A stretch of 64,000 nt of DNA from Leptolyngbya sp. Heron Island J (GTDB taxonomy: Bacteria; Cyanobacteriota; Cyanobacteriia; Phormidesmidales; Phormidesmidaceae), in the NCBI RefSeq assembly GCF_000482245.1, contig NZ_AWNH01000117.1, positions 1 to 64,000 on the forward strand, written 5' to 3'. The translations under genes and the position numbers were made by a program. Below are positions 29,564 through 38,629 of this stretch, piece after piece. How positions within the stretch are numbered: the first letter of the stretch is position 1; each line of letters begins with the position of its first letter. Below the pieces are notes generated by a model that had not been told where the DNA came from, ran no database searches, and saw only the letters and a program-made list of their open reading frames with translations.

Positions 29564-32500
29564 TTATTTTATAGCCGCTGGCGCTTGCAAATTCAACTCC
29601 TGATAAAATTCAGTCTCTTCGGTCAGTATTACAGAGCCAGGCTCGGCAGGTTGGCCATTAATTTGCAACTGATAGTTTCCTTGTTCCAAACGTTCTAAGG
29701 CATAAACACCCGCATCATTCGTAACAGAAAAACGCCGAGAGCTACCATCCTCTGAAATTGCCTCAACCCGTGCGCCAGCTACAGGATTACCGCTAGCGTC
29801 TGTCACAATCCCAATAAATGTATAAGCGGGTACAAGAGGAATCGAGACCGGGGTATAGCTACCAGGCACAACTTCCACAGCCATTGCACCCGCATCTGCC
29901 TGCCAATCCAATGGGAAGCCAGCTGGATCAACGTCCAAACGATAAATACCTGGAGCTGTACGCATTAAAACACCATCATCATTAATTTCCGGTCGATAGG
30001 TTCGAATTGATTCGTTATTAAGCGCCAACAACAGATCCGCATCTTCTGTGTAGAACTCTTCTGCTTTATCTCGCTGACCATTGTTATTACGATCAAAGTA
30101 AGGTTCTACCAGAATGCCTCCCTGGGGCCTGAGAAAATCAGTGCGTCGATCACCCGGACGGAAGCCTCGCTGAGAATTGATGCTAGATACTAGCTCTAAA
30201 CGGAAAGAATCATCGCTAGATGTTACAGAAACGCCTTGATATCGAGCCCTTAGCAATAAGCCGGGAACTATCGTTGTCTGGGCTGAAGCAATTACTCCAG
30301 ACCCTTCACTACCAGTGGCATATCCTAACTGAGCTTCCCAGGCAAAATTACCATCGGTTGCTCGCTCTCGTGATCGGTAGCGCCATCCCGTTGACACAAG
30401 GTTGCCGCTATTTTCTTGGCTACGGGTTTCGTAATTGGTAAAGACTGAGTGCCCTGAATCAAATGCATTTGAACCGGACAAGTTATAGCTGACTTCTGAT
30501 AATGTACTGACTTCATCACCGCGTGAATCAATCTCAAGATCGCCTAGATTCTGAAGGAAATTCCAACGAAAATTACCGTCTGTATTGATGGTTGTTCTAG
30601 CAAAGGTGAAGGCATCTTCACCTCCGAAGGCAACCTGTGCACCTACAGCTTCTGCTTCGCGATCGCTAGCAATACCTAGCAGTGTTACCTCAGGACTTAA
30701 CTGCAAATCAACATTAAACCGACGTTCAAACCGATTGCTGATAAAGCGAGTGCTCAGATCGTCTGACGGGTCGTAGCGCACCACCGCATCCACATCCCAT
30801 GTACCCTCATCATCTGCAGTCAGCACTTGGGCCGCTACCTGCAGGGGGATATCTGTCGGTTGATAAAATAATTCCCCTAAGCCTTGAAAATTCTCATCAT
30901 AAACTGCGCCCACCCCTAGAGTTAGCTCTTCTGAGACCCCCCAACGGTAGGCCAGGCCGCCACGCGGCTCACCAAAATCTCCCAAAAAACTATTCCCTGC
31001 ATCACGCTGCCAGCCAGCAGATGCTACCCAGGCGGATGCACCTGCTGGTAATTGACCTGCCACATCCGAAAAACTAACAACACGCACCTCTGGCAAATCA
31101 GTCAGACGACCGTTGGGATATAGCAACACCTGATAGTTGCGGCTCAAGATATCGCGACCAACATCCACTTCATTAAAGCGATAGAGCCCCGACGAATCAA
31201 CCAGCACCTGATCAATCACTCGATTACTAAAGCCTTCAGTCAGTTGAACCAACGTTCCTGGCTCAGCTTCCCCGGTGATCATCCGCCCAATCTGGTTACC
31301 CGATTGTAACCGCTGCCCTACATCAGCAGCACCATTACGCTGATCCTTGGGATCATATCCTTGTCGCTGCACATAGGTAGCTCCCCATAAATCATTGGAA
31401 CCAGCTGAATCCCAGAAAGGTCCTTGGGAACCGAGCACTAGGTCAAACCGATCGCTAGGCCGAAAGTATTGGGCTTCGGCTAAATCCCATGAGCGTGAGT
31501 CAGAAAATTCAGGCTGATCTACACTCAGATACCAACTGCCATTCCAGAGTGTTCCTACTGCGGAGAAATCTCCCTGATATGTCGTATCGCGATCGCCAAT
31601 ACTGACAACGTCCAACTCTTGCTCAAACGCTGTGATTGTAGATTGAGGCGCTGCTACTAACGGTAAGCCTTCTAATTGAACCTCTGATGTTCGAAATAGA
31701 CGTGCCCCACGCCCTCCTACAACCCAAGGAGGATTCAATCGAACCGCGTACTCACTAATATCAAACTCAGCAACCACATTAAATTGATCCTGCAGATCTT
31801 GAACCGAGAAGACTAGGCCCAAATCATCATCAGTCCGAATGGAGTCAGGATCTAAGCGAGTCACTAAACCTGGTGAACGAATTTCCAGTTGCCCATCAGA
31901 ATCCACATCCACCTGCAGACGCAACGCCTGAACCACAACATCGTAAGGAATTAACCAATTACTAAAATCAATCGCATCCGAACCATCAATTTTTCCTTTG
32001 ACTAGCTCACCTGGTAAAACACTGCGCTCGTTAACATTAATCCCGACAGGAAAAACATCAAATACCTCACTCTGGGACAGTCTCTCATCCGCTTCTACAG
32101 CGTCATTTTCAGCAGTCGCGTTGGGTGCATTAAGCTCAACAGTTTCTCCCTCCTCAAGATTTTTGAGTTCCTCGGCCCCTTCTACAGTCTCAGTGTCAGC
32201 TAAGACAGTTTCATCTGATGGCTCCGTCAGTTGCTCCTCAGGCTCAAGGAACCCAGAATCAACAACATTCAAGGTATTTTTTAATAGCTCAGACTCCTGC
32301 TGCTCAGACTCAAGAGAGTCTAAAAGAGATTCAGAAACATTAACCTCTGCAACACCTATTTCCGCAACGCCATCAGCGGGCGACACACCAGAATCTTCAA
32401 TAATCTCATTAGCCACAACTCCACCTAAAGAGTTATCAACTGCACCACCGTCTGTTTGTTCAGCTCCTGACAACAAAACCTCAGCAAACTCAGGCCGTTG

Positions 32501-32743
32501 TAGCATTTGTTCATCTTTAGGACTAAAAGAGACTGCAGGTTCTAGATTACGAGTCCGAGCAAATAACGGTTGTGGCATCTCCTGCTTACCTACATGAAGT
32601 GAGGCTACATCGGGTGACGTTACAGGCGGTGTCACCACAGTTGTTATTTCCGGCAAAGCCTGATCTGTAACCTCCAAGTTAGAGTCTAGCTTCGGCAGCG
32701 ATAATGTTGGGGGAAGATTAGGAGCGTCAATAGGGTAGGACAT
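29564..32743 (-). CDS. Fimbrial usher-like outer-membrane protein, 1059 aa
   Basis: Residues 1-228 are disordered, acidic and Ser/Thr-rich with no signal peptide. Residues 229-345 (VFPVGINVNERSVLPGELVK) resemble an usher N-terminal or periplasmic domain. A plug-like segment (LYRFNEVDVG, NYQVLLYPNGRL) precedes a long beta-barrel region with the usher-type LAYRWGVSEELTLGVGAVY. The C-terminal part has a DRNNNGQRDKAEEF calcium-type motif and, from about 985, a carboxypeptidase-regulatory-like domain (GIVTDASGNPVAGARVEA). With the adjacent PapD-like chaperone and subunit genes this suggests an outer-membrane assembly platform for fimbriae. An in-frame TGA eight codons upstream rules out an N-terminal extension; GAGG precedes the ATG. 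It could also be a large adhesin. Confidence 0.68.
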   Translation of the reverse strand: MSYPIDAPNLPPTLSLPKLDSNLEVTDQALPEITTVVTPPVTSPDVASLHVGKQEMPQPLFARTRNLEPAVSFSPKDEQMLQRPEFAEVLLSGAEQTDGGAVDNSLGGVVANEIIEDSGVSPADGVAEIGVAEVNVSESLLDSLESEQQESELLKNTLNVVDSGFLEPEEQLTEPSDETVLADTETVEGAEELKNLEEGETVELNAPNATAENDAVEADERLSQSEVFDVFPVGINVNERSVLPGELVKGKIDGSDAIDFSNWLIPYDVVVQALRLQVDVDSDGQLEIRSPGLVTRLDPDSIRTDDDLGLVFSVQDLQDQFNVVAEFDISEYAVRLNPPWVVGGRGARLFRTSEVQLEGLPLVAAPQSTITAFEQELDVVSIGDRDTTYQGDFSAVGTLWNGSWYLSVDQPEFSDSRSWDLAEAQYFRPSDRFDLVLGSQGPFWDSAGSNDLWGATYVQRQGYDPKDQRNGAADVGQRLQSGNQIGRMITGEAEPGTLVQLTEGFSNRVIDQVLVDSSGLYRFNEVDVGRDILSRNYQVLLYPNGRLTDLPEVRVVSFSDVAGQLPAGASAWVASAGWQRDAGNSFLGDFGEPRGGLAYRWGVSEELTLGVGAVYDENFQGLGELFYQPTDIPLQVAAQVLTADDEGTWDVDAVVRYDPSDDLSTRFISNRFERRFNVDLQLSPEVTLLGIASDREAEAVGAQVAFGGEDAFTFARTTINTDGNFRWNFLQNLGDLEIDSRGDEVSTLSEVSYNLSGSNAFDSGHSVFTNYETRSQENSGNLVSTGWRYRSRERATDGNFAWEAQLGYATGSEGSGVIASAQTTIVPGLLLRARYQGVSVTSSDDSFRLELVSSINSQRGFRPGDRRTDFLRPQGGILVEPYFDRNNNGQRDKAEEFYTEDADLLLALNNESIRTYRPEINDDGVLMRTAPGIYRLDVDPAGFPLDWQADAGAMAVEVVPGSYTPVSIPLVPAYTFIGIVTDASGNPVAGARVEAISEDGSSRRFSVTNDAGVYALERLEQGNYQLQINGQPAEPGSVILTEETEFYQELNLQAPAAIK

Positions 32744-33010
32744 GGGAACCTCACAACCAATCTGATTTCAAATAGTTTTTTCTATAGCACTCGTGAGTTA
32801 ATGAAAACTTGCGTGTCGAGGCAACGCTTATACCCACTTCTTATCTGGCCATAACTCCGTAATTTACTGGAAATCACTCAAGAGATTCTTAATTAAGAAA
32901 CAGGTGAGACCATCGAGGACTGGTAGCAATGATCTGATTAGCCTAGAGAAGTGAAATGGTTCCTCTACGCCTCATTTGTGTTTTTCAGTGACTTCATCAC
33001 CTCAATCAGC

Positions 33011-33352
33011 ATGACTAAACACTCACATGGCCTGAGTATTGCCAGCGCATTTTTCATGAGCGGCAGCCTGCTAACTCAAATCCAACCTGCACATGCAGAG
33101 AATGCCAACACAGACATTCTTTTTACAGGTACTGTACCTGTAACCTGTGCCTTTGAGGGGTTATCTTCTGTAGAACAATTAGACCCACAAATTGTAGTGG
33201 CTAATCGTCTAGCTAATTGTAATGAAGAGACTAGACTACATTATGAGTCAACCCATATTGAGCCTATAATTTCCCCTAGCCTCTCTGAACATACTTATCC
33301 AGATAGCAGTCGCAATCAAGAACTAGGCGTCATCACAATAACAGCACATTAA
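33011..33352 (+). CDS. Small secreted fimbrial-subunit-like protein, opposite strand
   Basis: A 113-aa exported protein (signal peptide MTKHSHGLSIASAFFMSGSL, cleavage near AHA). The mature start TDILFTGTVPVTCAFEG matches the motif in the two subunits at 34670 and 35761: [DN]-[IV]-x-F-x-G-x-V-x3-C-x-F, with a second Cys in LANCNEETR. After that cysteine it is only about 45 residues long, against roughly 85-100 in the others, so it may be truncated. A GTG at 32951 is an alternative start. It converges on the chaperone gene with 5 bp between stops. Confidence 0.62.
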   Translation: MTKHSHGLSIASAFFMSGSLLTQIQPAHAENANTDILFTGTVPVTCAFEGLSSVEQLDPQIVVANRLANCNEETRLHYESTHIEPIISPSLSEHTYPDSSRNQELGVITITAH

Positions 33353-33357
33353 AGTAG

Positions 33358-34203
33358 CTAAGGGTTCACAGTGGAAACAGCATTGGGCACAGTTAAATCC
33401 ACCGAAAAGGATAGTGTTTCCCAGTCATTATCGTCAGACCAAATTAATTCACCACTGAGCTGATATTGTCCAGGCCCCAAATTTGGCAAACTTTCGCCAA
33501 GATTACCCAACCCCAGAGAACGACCACCGCCGGCAATAATAGAAATAGGTTCTGTTTCTCCAGTTGCTACTTCAGTACCTGATTGGGATAGTTGCCAGTT
33601 CACCCTTGGACGTGTTGAAGCAGGACCATTATTATTGACAAGTAGTTCTAGCCGATTATCCTCTAAGTCAACGGCAGCCCCATTAACAGTTAAATTGGGT
33701 GCAATATCCCCATGGCGCACATATATCGTTGAACCAACACGCGTTTTGAGAATAACGCTGACACCTTCTTCATTGAGCGTTTCAACTAAAGTTTCAGTAA
33801 ACAATACTCCTCGGTATTCACCTTCAGCCAGGCTAGGAGGCAGCTGCGCAACAAATCGAATTTTACGTGATTCAGCAGCTGGCACCTCAAGCTCGATGGG
33901 AGAGAATCGCAAATAGGGTGATAAATCATGAGGCGATGATTCTACTGTTTGAAACCCTTCTTCTTGATCATAGGTAAAGGGTTCCATGTATACTCTGGCT
34001 CGAAAAATATCCTCTGTGTCATTGGTTACTGTAATCACCCCTTGGGCTCTTCCACGCTCAGCATCTAACTCAACTACCAGAGGGGACAGACCAACTTGGG
34101 CCAGCGCAGCACCAGCCCATAACACCGAACCAGCTAAACTCAGGTTCAAGGCTTTCACCGCTGTCAAAAAACGACAACTAGATAACTTCTTTATATTAAA
34201 CAT
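33358..34203 (-). CDS. PapD-like fimbrial periplasmic chaperone
   Basis: A 281-aa exported protein (signal MFNIKKLSSCRFLTAVKALN to ALA, about residue 36). The N-terminal immunoglobulin-like domain is recognisable: LSPLVVELDAERGRAQGVIT, then LRFSPIELEVPAAESRKIRF with the central Arg/Lys pattern, and GEYRGVLFTETL, typical of fimbrial chaperones. The C-terminal Ig domain (about 165-275) includes VNNNGPASTRPRVNW. Such chaperones hold pilin subunits by donor-strand complementation. I choose the ATG at 34203; a TTG at 34221 gives 287 aa. It lies downstream of the subunit gene and upstream of the usher on the same strand. Confidence 0.8.
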   Translation of the reverse strand: MFNIKKLSSCRFLTAVKALNLSLAGSVLWAGAALAQVGLSPLVVELDAERGRAQGVITVTNDTEDIFRARVYMEPFTYDQEEGFQTVESSPHDLSPYLRFSPIELEVPAAESRKIRFVAQLPPSLAEGEYRGVLFTETLVETLNEEGVSVILKTRVGSTIYVRHGDIAPNLTVNGAAVDLEDNRLELLVNNNGPASTRPRVNWQLSQSGTEVATGETEPISIIAGGGRSLGLGNLGESLPNLGPGQYQLSGELIWSDDNDWETLSFSVDLTVPNAVSTVNP

Positions 34204-34221
34204 GACATCAACATCCAACAA

Positions 34222-34669
34222 AGACCGAGAAACAGGAAAACACTACACACTCATTTTTTGACTATTGAAAAGCCAAAACAACATCCAGATTCACAGATGG
34301 ATTTCTACTAATAACAAGCTAGCAATTTTCATTCACCATCCAACTAAGGAATGAGGATTTAATTAGATCCTATTTTTGCCGTACAGGCGTTCAATGGAAC
34401 GCCTCTGAAGACAACATTTACTGACATCTTCTAAAAGATAGTAGACACACCCTTCGATGATGAGATTTCCATTAAACCAAAGGTTTTTCTAACCCTAAAA
34501 AATGACAACAATGTTAGCGAACTAACATACTTAGGGTTTTCTATTACATTCAAAGGTCATTTCCTACGAGTATTAAATTGGGAAACACTCTTGAGGGTTA
34601 AAAGCCTTAGGCCAATGCAGAATATCTTTCCTCCATCTCATCCAATGTAGAGGGACTCAATCACTACTA
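34222..34669 (-). other. Structured intergenic region between subunit and chaperone genes
   Basis: 448 bp. Contains a perfect 8-bp hairpin with 4-nt loop at 34385-34404 (AGGCGTTC) and a nested hairpin at 34491-34538. No small gene was recognised. The structures may lower read-through from the subunit gene into the chaperone gene. Confidence 0.5.
34491..34538 (-). terminator. Nested hairpin downstream of a subunit gene
   Basis: Outer arms AACCCTAA / TTAGGGTT enclose inner arms ATGTTAG / CTAACAT. It lies 132 bp past the 34670 subunit stop. On the minus strand a short T-run follows the outer arm. Partial terminator or attenuator. Confidence 0.5.
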
Positions 34670-35131
34670 CTAGAGGACAGTTGCAGTGACAGTAACTTCA
34701 AACTCATAGTCACCAGGAGTCAACAGGTCACCACCCTCACTTACTGTAAGGTCAACTTCAATCAACTCCATATCTACAGGATCATCGAATACGATAACTT
34801 CGTCATCATCATTCAGAACCGCTGTAGACTCAAATGGAGCAAGGGCAGGACCGGAAGTCTTACTGACTGTAGTAGCTTCTACCTGAGCAGCGCCATTGCA
34901 GGTCAGATAGGTATAACCTGGATAACCGCCAGGATTGGTACTAGACAGCTCAGTTGCGGGATTAGCATCGGGCGCTAGGTAACCATAGTAGGTATAGTCA
35001 AAGTTACAGTACTCTTCAACAGTTCCATAAAATGGAACATTTGTGGAAGCATCCTGTGCTTTAGCAGTAGGTGCAAGAAATACACTGCTACCGATTGCTA
35101 GAACAGATGCTAAAGCTAAGTGCCGAATCAT
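34670..35131 (-). CDS. Fimbrial-subunit-like secreted protein A
   Basis: A 153-aa exported protein. GGAGG eight bases upstream fixes the ATG at 35131 (MIRHLALASVLAIGSSVFLA, signal cleaved near AKA). The mature N-terminus STNVPFYGTVEEYCNFDY has the shared D/N-x-x-F-x-G-x-V-x3-C-x-F motif; a second Cys is in YLTCNGAAQVEA. The C-terminus LTPGDYEFEVTVTATVL resembles the closing beta-strand of spore-coat-U/Csu-type pilin subunits. It is the first gene upstream of the chaperone and the strong ribosome site suggests high output. Assignment as a pilin is inference. Confidence 0.65.
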   Translation of the reverse strand: MIRHLALASVLAIGSSVFLAPTAKAQDASTNVPFYGTVEEYCNFDYTYYGYLAPDANPATELSSTNPGGYPGYTYLTCNGAAQVEATTVSKTSGPALAPFESTAVLNDDDEVIVFDDPVDMELIEVDLTVSEGGDLLTPGDYEFEVTVTATVL

Positions 35132-35557
35132 AATAAACCTCCAAGGAATTGGGAAAAACTTGATTAACAAAGACCTAATTAAAAGCCATTTTTTTAGAAA
35201 TGACTATTTTTAAAGGTCTGATAAAGATTACTTAATGGATATCTCTTCTCCGGAAAAACACAGAGATTAAAATATTAAGAAAAAACCACAAAATACGATA
35301 TAAAATTATTAATTTATAGACAGCAAAAATTGTGACAATTGTCTTAAAAACTGTCATCTTAAATATTAAACCTATTCAGGAATCACTCTGAAATGGTTAT
35401 ATGCATTAAGGACTCAGAGGTTGTCTCATACTTAATGAGGCCTCAACAATTGCTTTTATAATGTTTAGCAATCAGGGTTGAAGATAATGTATGGTCGAGC
35501 CAACCATTAGTGTGAAGACAACCATTAGTGAGCAGCATTTAAATCAGATAGCTGCTC

Positions 35558-35586
35558 AATCAATAGGGTATTTCACCCTATTGATT
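35558..35586. terminator. Hairpin with 12-bp stem
   Basis: AATCAATAGGGT and its exact complement around a 5-nt loop (ATTTC). It lies downstream of the 35761 subunit gene (175 bp), so it may end that transcript. Confidence 0.55.
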
Positions 35587-35645
35587 AGCCTCCAATAACT
35601 ATTAAGTAGATAGCCGAAAGTAAACGTCCCTAACACCGCTGGTTT

Positions 35646-35725
35646 CGACTCCGCTCAACCAGCTAATTTAGAGAAATGAGGGCTGAGCGGAGTCGTTCGC
35701 GAAGCGTCTCCTACGGAGATAGCCC
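35646..35725. repeat. Small interspersed inverted repeat
   Basis: Inverted arms CGACTCCGCTCA (35646-35657) and TGAGCGGAGTCG (35684-35695) are followed by TTCGCGAAGCGTCTCC and a TCTCCTACGGAGA palindrome. This is the GC-rich style of short repeat scattered through many cyanobacterial genomes, inserted in otherwise AT-rich spacer. Confidence 0.65.
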
Positions 35726-35760
35726 AGATTGATGGATAGTTTTGCTTATTCACTTAGCAG

Positions 35761-36384
35761 TTAGGGCGCAACTGTGAGCGTCACCTTGTACGTGTAGGTT
35801 CCTGGTGGAAACCCTAGACGCGTATCTTCCGCTGTTACTCTCATATCCACCTGCAATGGAATATCAACTCCTGCCGGAATCGCTAGAGGCGTACTATTGG
35901 ATGTTGTATTACCGACGTTAGAATCAACAAACGCCTCAGCCAAAGACAACACGACACTTGGACCACCCACCTGAGTCGGTTCATTCACGATGAGTTGGGT
36001 ATCTGCATTGCACTTTAGATTAACTTGACCAGGTAAGCCTCCTGAAGCCAGACTACTGAGGACTTCAGCAATGGGAGTGCCAACTGGCACAAGACGCCCA
36101 GGATCTGGCGTATCAAATGTGCACGTCGTCTGTACTACTCCTGTAAAGGGAATATCAACTGAAGGGGAGGCATTCGGAGCTCCAGCACCAAAGGGAATAT
36201 CTGCTGAACTGTTATTAATGCTAGGAGAGCTAACTTGCGCTAGTGCACTTGTAGAGAATAATGCAGATAACATCATTAATGATGATGAGGCACCCACAAG
36301 ACTACTAGTTACGGTCGAAACTGTTAGGCGATATGTTGGACTTTCCATCACACTCTTTAGATTTACTAAACTGTTGCTAGACAT
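35761..36384 (-). CDS. Fimbrial-subunit-like secreted protein B
   Basis: A 207-aa exported protein with a long N-region and hydrophobic signal (VGASSSLMMLSALFSTSALA, cleavage near residue 49). A serine-rich linker leads to SVDIPFTGVVQTTCTFDT, the shared subunit motif, then LKCNADTQLIVNEPT with the second Cys. It ends LGFPPGTYTYKVTLTVAP, similar to the end of subunit A. Pairing of the two cysteines is expected in the periplasm. An ATG at 36348 is an alternative start. The pilin role is inferred from motif and neighbours. Confidence 0.65.
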   Translation of the reverse strand: MSSNSLVNLKSVMESPTYRLTVSTVTSSLVGASSSLMMLSALFSTSALAQVSSPSINNSSADIPFGAGAPNASPSVDIPFTGVVQTTCTFDTPDPGRLVPVGTPIAEVLSSLASGGLPGQVNLKCNADTQLIVNEPTQVGGPSVVLSLAEAFVDSNVGNTTSNSTPLAIPAGVDIPLQVDMRVTAEDTRLGFPPGTYTYKVTLTVAP

Positions 36385-36670
36385 ATTGTTCTACACCTGA
36401 TGGTTGGTCATAGACATAGCCGTAATTCAGCACACCTTCGAAAGGTTGTCGCAGTGAGCTCACTGTGATGTAGCATCATCGTGACTTATATTGAATAGCC
36501 ATATCCATGAAATATCTCAAACAGATAGATGTGATCGCAACCCACCCTAAATTGTTCAGAGTCGGTATTATCAGCATACCGAGAGCTCATGTTCAGATCT
36601 AAAAACATTTTAATGAGCGCAATTCTTCGCTCTACATCAGCTCAATCAATAAAGCTGACTGCTAAACAGC

Positions 36671-37084
36671 TTAATCAGTTAATACAGTAAACATATAGTT
36701 GTAGTTGCCTACAACAAAACTCTCAGGTCGAATCACTCGCATATTAATTTCGACCTGGGTAAATCCAGGCGGTAATGCTAAGCGGTCGCCAGCATCACCC
36801 TGACGACCGCCTGCATTGACTTGTATCTTGTGATGTGTGCCAGATGGATCGGAAGATGGACCAGAAGCAAGGCTTGCTGAGAGTACCTGCAGGTTGACCG
36901 GCTCATCACTCCAAATTTCAAGGACAGCAGGAGCTACTGTCTCTAAAACTTGTTGATCATAAGGATCGATTTCTAAAACGCCACTGTTAATCAGCCGAAT
37001 CGTAGACTCTGCATAGGCTGGAGAGAGTATGCCTAAAAAAGGTGCTAAAAAAACAGCAGCCAAAGGGAACACAATGCGTAACAT
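36671..37084 (-). CDS. Secreted protein of the fimbrial-type locus, no cysteines
   Basis: A 137-aa exported protein (MLRIVFPLAAVFLAPFLGIL, signal cleaved near AYA, residue 25). The mature part is beta-rich and ends FVVGNYNYMFTVLTD, echoing the subunit C-termini, but it lacks both conserved cysteines and the VPFxG motif. It could be a distant subunit or tip/anchor component. AGGA precedes the ATG. It is the most upstream structural gene of the locus. Confidence 0.58.
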   Translation of the reverse strand: MLRIVFPLAAVFLAPFLGILSPAYAESTIRLINSGVLEIDPYDQQVLETVAPAVLEIWSDEPVNLQVLSASLASGPSSDPSGTHHKIQVNAGGRQGDAGDRLALPPGFTQVEINMRVIRPESFVVGNYNYMFTVLTD

Positions 37085-37948: not shown

Positions 37949-38629
37949 TTAAACTAAATGCCGACAACGGCATTCGATATTGCACTTACGAAAAATATTT
38001 TTCATATGTTTTTTGACCGTATTGAGTGCAATGATCAGCTCATCGCTCACCTCACGGTAGGAAAGCCCCTGCAGATAGAGTGTCCAGACTTCAGTCTCTC
38101 GCTCAGTCAAATCGTATCGATAGGCATCAGCTGTTGCTCGATGCTGAGCAATTTGAGTGAGATCTTCAATCGTGACCAACATACATTTTGTTGGCTGGTC
38201 TGTTAAATCAATCCACTCTACATTGAGATAGAAACGAATGCCTCCGGGTAGAAACGCTGTATCATAAAGCTGCAATGTGTAGTCGGGAAATTCATCACAG
38301 CTCTCACTTAGATACTGGCAAAGCGTCGTTATCTGCTCAGGTATGGTGGTTGCAACAGACTGGCGATCAATCACTCCAAATGCTTGACTCTTCGCACCTT
38401 TATGCAAAAGTGTACAAAATTCATCCGCTTTGGTCGTACTACGTAATAGATGCCCCGCTGCGTCAAACAAGATAAAACCTCGAAACGGAAAGAATTGTCC
38501 TAGCAGTATTTCAAAAATCAGATCTAAGTCGTGAGTACTGGCTTTTGCTGATTTTGAGCTTTGAGTGGATGGGTTCTGGCAGACCTCATCCATGGGGATT
38601 GACAGGTTGCTTAAGGTACTGAGCGCCAT
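37949..38629 (-). CDS. LuxR-family transcriptional regulator
   Basis: A 226-aa regulator. The C-terminal LuxR helix-turn-helix is clear: YDLTERETEVWTLYLQGLSY then REVSDELIIALNTVKKHMKN (residues 168-210). The N-terminal 150 residues look PAS-like (FFPFRGFILFDAAGHLL, IRFYLNVEWIDL, KCMLVTIEDLTQIAQHRATA), suggesting ligand or redox sensing. It lies upstream of the fimbrial-type locus on the same strand, a plausible activator, and is divergent from the 349-aa gene. Targets are not proven. Confidence 0.85.
   Translation of the reverse strand: MALSTLSNLSIPMDEVCQNPSTQSSKSAKASTHDLDLIFEILLGQFFPFRGFILFDAAGHLLRSTTKADEFCTLLHKGAKSQAFGVIDRQSVATTIPEQITTLCQYLSESCDEFPDYTLQLYDTAFLPGGIRFYLNVEWIDLTDQPTKCMLVTIEDLTQIAQHRATADAYRYDLTERETEVWTLYLQGLSYREVSDELIIALNTVKKHMKNIFRKCNIECRCRHLV

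Follow-up and report, generated by a model that had tools for sequence, protein, structure and literature searches.

A probable non-classical chaperone–usher locus in the cyanobacterium Leptolyngbya sp. Heron Island J

Does the gene cluster at positions 29564–37084 of contig NZ_AWNH01000117.1 from Leptolyngbya sp. Heron Island J, a cyanobacterium with a genome of 8.06 Mb, encode a chaperone–usher (CU) system that lies outside the standard domain models? The window, meaning the whole stretch of DNA analyzed here, comprises the first 64,000 nucleotides (nt) of this contig. A preliminary description made from the sequence alone had proposed a chaperone–usher-like fimbrial locus within it, and all of the open reading frames (ORFs) that it named were found at the positions given. 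The locus is very probably a non-classical CU pathway that would build a thin linear surface fiber. The identification as a CU locus is borne out by the usher fold, by profile–profile homology of three components, by diagnostic residues of the chaperone, and by a conserved operon. The genes are transcribed from the minus strand in the order 137-, 207-, and 166-residue subunits, then chaperone, then usher, as listed below (lengths in amino acids, aa).

36671..37084, minus strand: subunit 1, 137 aa, with a signal peptide and with neither a Cys pair nor an N-terminal donor segment (profile E = 1.4e-15)
35761..36384, minus strand: subunit 2, 207 aa, with a Cys pair (88, 125) and a doubled donor-like motif (profile E = 7.5e-37)
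34670..35170, minus strand: subunit 3, 166 aa, with a signal peptide, a Cys pair, and a 17-residue donor segment (QDASTNVPFYGTVEEYC) (profile E = 5.8e-35)
33358..34221, minus strand: PapD-type periplasmic chaperone, 287 aa, with a signal peptide (profile E = 1.5e-101)
29564..32743, minus strand: outer-membrane usher, 1059 aa, with no signal peptide detected by hydropathy (identified by fold and profiles)

Profiles built from relatives, with the window sequences left out, were scored against 160 ORFs of the window. Bit scores of 1185 (E = 0), 332, and 120/114/51 were obtained for the usher, chaperone, and subunits, respectively; apart from the plus-strand ORF described below (E = 6e-6), the best remaining ORFs appear at E values of 0.01 or worse. 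The gene set is not a chance assembly, because these profiles pick out the window genes and little else.

The AlphaFold2 model of the usher was computed with 63 relatives. The predicted local distance difference test score (pLDDT) exceeds 90 for 612 of the 1059 residues, and residues 1–225 are disordered. The model contains an N-terminal domain (~229–343), a barrel (~368–858), a plug (~487–556) located after the sixth strand, and two C-terminal domains, CTD1 (~875–958) and CTD2 (~963–1049). A plug after the sixth strand is also present in FimD and PapC. Approximately 26 barrel strands, not 24, are assigned to the model by DSSP. When the model was searched with Foldseek, structures of FimD and PapC occupied ranks 1–17 with E values from 3.9e-26 (the best FimD) to 2.3e-10, and the best non-usher fold appeared at 4.0e-9. 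Alignment with VIA-align gave Z = 16.6 against PapC (4.4 Å over 338 residues) and Z = 15.9 against FimD (7.2 Å over 575 residues, model residues 362–1055), where unrelated porins reached Z values of ~13; these structural alignments leave out the N-terminal domain at 229–343. The model supports a plugged barrel with C-terminal β-sandwich domains, and the Foldseek ranking upholds the earlier proposal that the 1059-aa protein is an usher barrel.

Two Pfam domains were detected in the single usher sequence. CarboxypepD_reg matches the C-terminus with E = 1.4e-15, and a weak match is obtained for CooC_C (E = 0.019), which is a domain known from ushers of the CS1 type. The carboxypeptidase-like domain noted in the preliminary description is therefore a real match, but it is not the non-standard addition that it had been taken for: since the alignment with the FimD fold extends to model residue 1055, it corresponds to the ordinary CTD2 of an usher. 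In profile–profile comparison, the usher family matched 14 cyanobacterial PF00577 ushers with a probability of 97.7 and E = 1.7e-12 over 647 columns. No match was obtained with EcpC, with FimD as a single sequence, or with unrelated components.

The chaperone profile has a sole sequence match in the PDB, EcpB (5dfk), with E = 0.0021. A probability of 98.5 (E = 3.8e-15) was obtained when the chaperones were compared, profile to profile, with cyanobacterial archaic chaperones. Residues P108 and R137, which align with P60 and R89 of EcpB, are kept without exception (50 of 50 relatives). The superfamily-invariant proline is P59 in CsuC, and Arg89 of domain 1 occurs in archaic and alternative chaperones only (PMC4654587). 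P108 is this invariant proline, and R137 is the Arg89-type hallmark of the non-classical chaperones. The arginine of domain 2 is kept in 30 of the 50 relatives, and the mature protein is without Cys in 49 of them. Assignment of the invariant Y253 and R234 to the Tyr196/Arg174 anchor of CsuC was dropped, since alignment with EcpB puts the anchor at S227/R204.

The subunit profile matches an SCPU-domain protein in the PDB, 8cio (which we take to be CupE1), with E = 7e-4, followed by CfaE and CsuE. Comparison of the subunits with cyanobacterial SCPU subunits gave a profile–profile probability of 98.1 (E = 1.1e-13); for the usher, chaperone, and subunit comparisons alike, the cross-component controls were near zero. 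A Cys pair is present in 52 of 63 subunits and a lone Cys in none of the 63; within the window, two of the three full subunits have the pair. The putative donor segment occupies 15–20 residues before the first Cys in most subunits. In 68 of 159, the stretch between the predicted cleavage site of the signal peptide and the first Cys (or the corresponding position) is exactly 15 residues long, with the pattern xxDVPFxGxVxxxC. The donor strand of CupE1 has 13 residues, and a conserved Cys bridge is located beside it (PMC10104325).

A second class of subunits has 8 residues or fewer before the first Cys position, and 18 of the 20 loci with this class have exactly one such subunit. In the 137-aa subunit, ~2 residues lie between the signal peptide and strand A; most subunits have at least 15 there. 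A subunit that has no strand to donate fits only the first position of a fiber, and the 137-aa protein is therefore proposed as a candidate tip subunit. No two-domain tip adhesin of the CsuE or CupE6 type was found in the window, where the subunits are all single-domain proteins of 137–207 aa. The AlphaFold2 model of the 207-aa subunit has a pLDDT above 90 from approximately residue 80. Its nearest Foldseek neighbors are mostly CU pilins, together with other donor-strand fibers, at weak E values of ~0.005–0.05, and VIA-align gave a weak fold match to pilins (Z of 5–7). The N-terminal extension of this subunit is more than twice the usual length, and within residues ~50–90 the donor segment looks duplicated (SADIPFGAG...PSVDIPFTGV).

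Several results weigh against the assignment of the locus to a CU pathway. With PF00577, no usher was found in the whole host genome, and no match was obtained at an E value of 0.1 in 20 of 20 family members examined. PapD_N matches 1 of 18 relative chaperones (4.2e-8). PF05229 (SCPU) matches 3 of 27 subunits, with a best E value of 0.008 that does not reach the curated cut-off; a known cyanobacterial SCPU subunit used as the control gave 7.6e-33. No Foldseek match below E = 0.001 was found for the model of the 207-aa subunit. The column of the chaperone that aligns with the carboxylate anchor (Y196 of CsuC, Y169 of EcpB) contains S/T/A/G, with Tyr in 1 of 50 relatives, so that the anchor may be altered, a point that hinges on the weak alignment of domain 2. 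Finally, no Sec signal peptide was detected by hydropathy in residues 1–225 of the usher (best 13-residue mean of 1.08).

Searches with single sequences were similarly unproductive. The chaperone and subunits of the window are without any Pfam match, the NCBIfam searches with the window proteins returned nothing useful, and phmmer searches of the PDB returned almost nothing. Taken alone, these near-empty results would have suggested that no CU system is present. The Usher, PapD_N, and SCPU models, which the preliminary description had named as a check, match no window protein singly, whereas the leave-window-out profiles recover all of the components. Of the two structural features on which that description had staked its proposal, the usher barrel was found in the model, and the small proteins have a pilin-like N-terminal segment, with a weak fold match to donor-strand fibers; the proposal was not refuted by either.

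In the proposed pathway, the subunits would reach the periplasm by Sec, as suggested by the signal peptides in their sequences. Each subunit would be an immunoglobulin-like fold short of one strand, which the chaperone would supply. R137, the equivalent of Arg89 in CsuC and EcpB, is present in the chaperone sequence and would hold the C-terminus of the subunit. The usher, predicted to be a plugged outer-membrane barrel, would recruit the chaperone–subunit complexes and let the N-terminal donor segment of the incoming subunit take the place of the strand lent by the chaperone. The 137-aa subunit would accept a strand but could not donate one, and may thus form the tip of the fiber. By analogy with known CU pili, the fiber would most likely serve in adhesion, in aggregation, or in holding biofilms together.

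The same fold might instead serve a surface coat without fibers, as in the CU-like pathway of Myxococcus, which is credited, by way of a citation in PMC3610870, with a role in spore coat formation. The relationship of the subunits to SCPU and their small number would suit a coat, and Myxococcus provides the precedent. The donor segments are of fixed length, however, like those of the fiber-forming CupE1 and CsuA/B, and most loci with a donor-less subunit have exactly one, as suits a linear fiber with a tip. A coat is considered unlikely.

An outer-membrane usher should need a Sec signal peptide. The long acidic N-terminus reported earlier for the window usher was confirmed: the 225 disordered residues include 48 D/E and 9 K/R. 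A leader was sought in alternative starts, in every frame between −700 and +400 nt, among internal hydrophobic segments, and by frame-shift reading, and none was found; the reading frame opens eight codons 5′ of the ATG. Most relatives have a signal peptide. Approximately 16 of the 63 start without one but have an intact barrel, and ten of these are placed close to the window in the tree of ushers. Calothrix brevissima NIES-22 is among the strains with a signal-less usher. The signal-less label is clustered on this tree, with 10 changes compared with 16.3 after shuffling, and 1 of 500 shuffles gave a value as low. Signal-less ushers often have a proline-rich start (MSYxxS.., MFxxxPPxxPP..), and in three of the related signal-less loci (L123, L126, and L128) the chaperone gene ends in an overlap with the usher ATG, so that there is no room for a leader. 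An internal signal peptide is present in the ushers of L100 and L149. The chaperones and subunits nearly all keep their hydrophobic leaders.

In L045 and L117, a signal peptide is encoded in another frame just upstream of the usher frame; the ORF that adjoins the signal-less usher frame is at L045:9875-10144 and, in L117, upstream of 7001. From the sequence, this arrangement looks like a frameshift, whether by mutation, by sequencing error, or programmed.

The CU machine may no longer work in the host strain, with the locus decaying. The absence of a signal peptide in any frame of the window usher, a truncated subunit on the plus strand (listed below), and the fast evolution of the N-terminal tail of the usher would be expected from decay. 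Against this, the signal-less relatives retain intact barrels, and the usher gene outside the tail has a ratio of nonsynonymous to synonymous substitution rates (dN/dS) of ~0.11–0.23 in six close pairs. The window usher, chaperone, and three subunits are, moreover, all open and well conserved. Decay of the whole locus is quite unlikely. The tail itself is under some constraint in most pairs. A second gene in the tail of L123/L124 was considered and rejected, since the apparent excess of amino acid changes rests on ~13 differences and none of the other frames is open. Decay, a leader that escaped detection, or an unusual export route may each account for the signal-less usher, and such ushers constitute a concrete export problem.

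A reading of the large protein as a porin-like barrel or a transport barrel that carries an immunoglobulin-like tail and has unrelated secreted proteins beside it, which would fit the PF00577 match in 0 of 20 members and the CarboxypepD_reg domain at the usher C-terminus, is hardly credible, being already contradicted by the ushers that form the top 17 Foldseek matches, by the plug after strand six, by the 647-column match to true ushers, and by the conserved chaperone and pilins that adjoin the usher.

CU genes are already known in cyanobacteria: Synechocystis has CccS, CccP, and Slr0019, and syntenic cyanobacterial CU clusters have been defined by PF05229, PF00345, and PF00577 (PMC4390875). 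Flocculation was unchanged upon deletion of ushA (PMC6755745), and a CU cluster was noted in Nodularia (PMC5853447). The loci of CccS, CccP, and Slr0019 (UshA) share with the window the phylum, the subunit–chaperone–usher order, and components that are homologous by profile–profile comparison. They carry PF00577, PF00345, and PF05229 domains, which the window family lacks at the single-sequence level, and the chaperones of the window family form a separate supported clan (98/92).

The archaic (σ) CU systems, Csu of Acinetobacter and CupE of Pseudomonas, share with the window the SCPU-related subunits, the Cys pair, the putative N-terminal donor strand, and the Arg89-type chaperone. The window differs from them in its short donor-less subunit, in the two-domain tip adhesin that was not found there, in the chaperone without the anchor tyrosine at the aligned column, and in components that fall below the Pfam cut-offs. 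Among the alternative CU systems, the E. coli common pilus (ECP, EcpA-E) and CFA/I, EcpB is the best PDB match of the chaperone profile, and the weak CooC_C match is in the usher. The EcpB-type disulfide (Cys 170/179, domain 2) is not present in the chaperones of the window family, of which 49 of 50 have no Cys, and no profile match was obtained for the usher to EcpC or for the subunits to EcpA or EcpD. The usher fold is shared with the classical type 1 system (FimC/FimD), FimD and PapC being the solved relatives found. The window chaperone differs from classical ones in the Arg89-type residue, which is described as restricted to the archaic and alternative types (PMC4654587), and profile comparison with FimC and FimA gave no match.

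On sequence evidence, the window family shares ancestry with the archaic branch, yet it is a separate group outside the standard models. CU systems of the PF00577 type were already known in cyanobacteria; the second family is new. No description of it, or of a CU system in Melainabacteria, was found in the literature searched, which excludes most subscription papers and all preprints.

The usher family is present in 28 of 292 cyanobacterial genomes (about 1 in 10), and 22 of these 28 are without a PF00577 usher. PF00577 ushers occur in 18 of the 292, and 6 genomes carry both families, at separate places. Because surveys with PF00577, PF00345, and PF05229 miss the window family, those 22 genomes would be scored as usher-less. 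Among named strains, relatives were found in Nostoc, Calothrix, Fischerella, Coleofasciculus, Moorena, Trichodesmium, and others, and 80 of the 108 loci were kept. Searches for plasmids with the DNA and with the usher protein gave nothing.

The order of subunit(s), chaperone, and usher recurs among the relatives, so that the operon is conserved among them; conservation of the locus in other cyanobacterial genomes was a check that the preliminary description had suggested. The chaperone is directly upstream on the same strand in 78 of 101 long ushers, the median distance between the two genes being 136 nt; the count is approximate, since contig ends truncate a part of the loci and certain genomes enter it twice. 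The layout had been called non-standard, and this holds in part: the gene order is standard, CTD2 is normal, and subunits on the opposite strand are found in relatives too. A chaperone gene is on the strand opposite to a nearby usher, in some cases as a second copy, in L034:13529-14353, L105, L107, L108, L110, L111, L117, and L147. The window family is a second candidate for the thin non-type-IV fibers of filamentous cyanobacteria, which form mats, symbioses, and blooms, and the composition of thin pili becomes testable in strains with a single locus.

The same usher family is present in a metagenome-assembled genome of Candidatus Parabeggiatoa (L146) and, within the order to which it belongs, in 4 of 43 genomes. 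Gammaproteobacteria of the Beggiatoa order with the usher family are represented by L146, L217, and L199. The contig of L146 appears to hold a sigma-54-type activator, unlike cyanobacteria. A repeated C-terminal fragment of the usher at 8255-8623 of L146, beside extra subunits, suggests a duplication.

The chaperone profile also matches ~24 genomes of 1.6–2.5 Mb that belong to a different class of the phylum; judged by their size, this is probably Vampirovibrionia. The neighborhoods there contain 2–4 secreted proteins that resemble pilins, together with a protein of ~890–1010 aa. Related chaperone–subunit–usher operons of this class were observed in L208-L216 (G275, G232, G192, G146, G020, G096, G106, G240, and G236). 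When family f31 of this class was compared with the window family, the profile–profile probabilities were 96.9 for the usher over 730 columns and 99.8 for the chaperone. In the chaperone tree, the clan of the window family (98/92) is apart from the PF00577-linked chaperones (80/77); it groups with f31 with moderate support (86/86), and the length of the outgroups prevents a root from being placed. It is conceivable, if rather doubtful, that these systems constitute a fourth CU branch that is rooted in the phylum, predates photosynthetic Cyanobacteria, is shared with the non-photosynthetic class, and has a donor-less tip of one domain instead of a two-domain adhesin, along with a sub-branch of ushers that would arrive in the outer membrane without a cleavable Sec signal.

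Two further genes of the window had been included in the preliminary description.

37949..38629, minus strand: LuxR/GerE-type regulator, upstream of the locus (GerE E = 8.6e-11)
32951..33352, plus strand: truncated subunit-like ORF, 133 aa, between the chaperone and the usher (profile E = 6e-6)

The LuxR regulator is a real gene but is outside the conserved part of the system: a LuxR gene gave just 3 weak matches across 106 related loci, and its candidacy as the cognate regulator was rejected for this reason. The plus-strand ORF does match the subunit profile, as anticipated for a subunit on the other strand, but it is not a complete one. Nothing further of it was found in the other reading frames. 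It contains a signal peptide, a donor strand, and the region of the first Cys only, aligned to model positions 11–49, and is probably a remnant.

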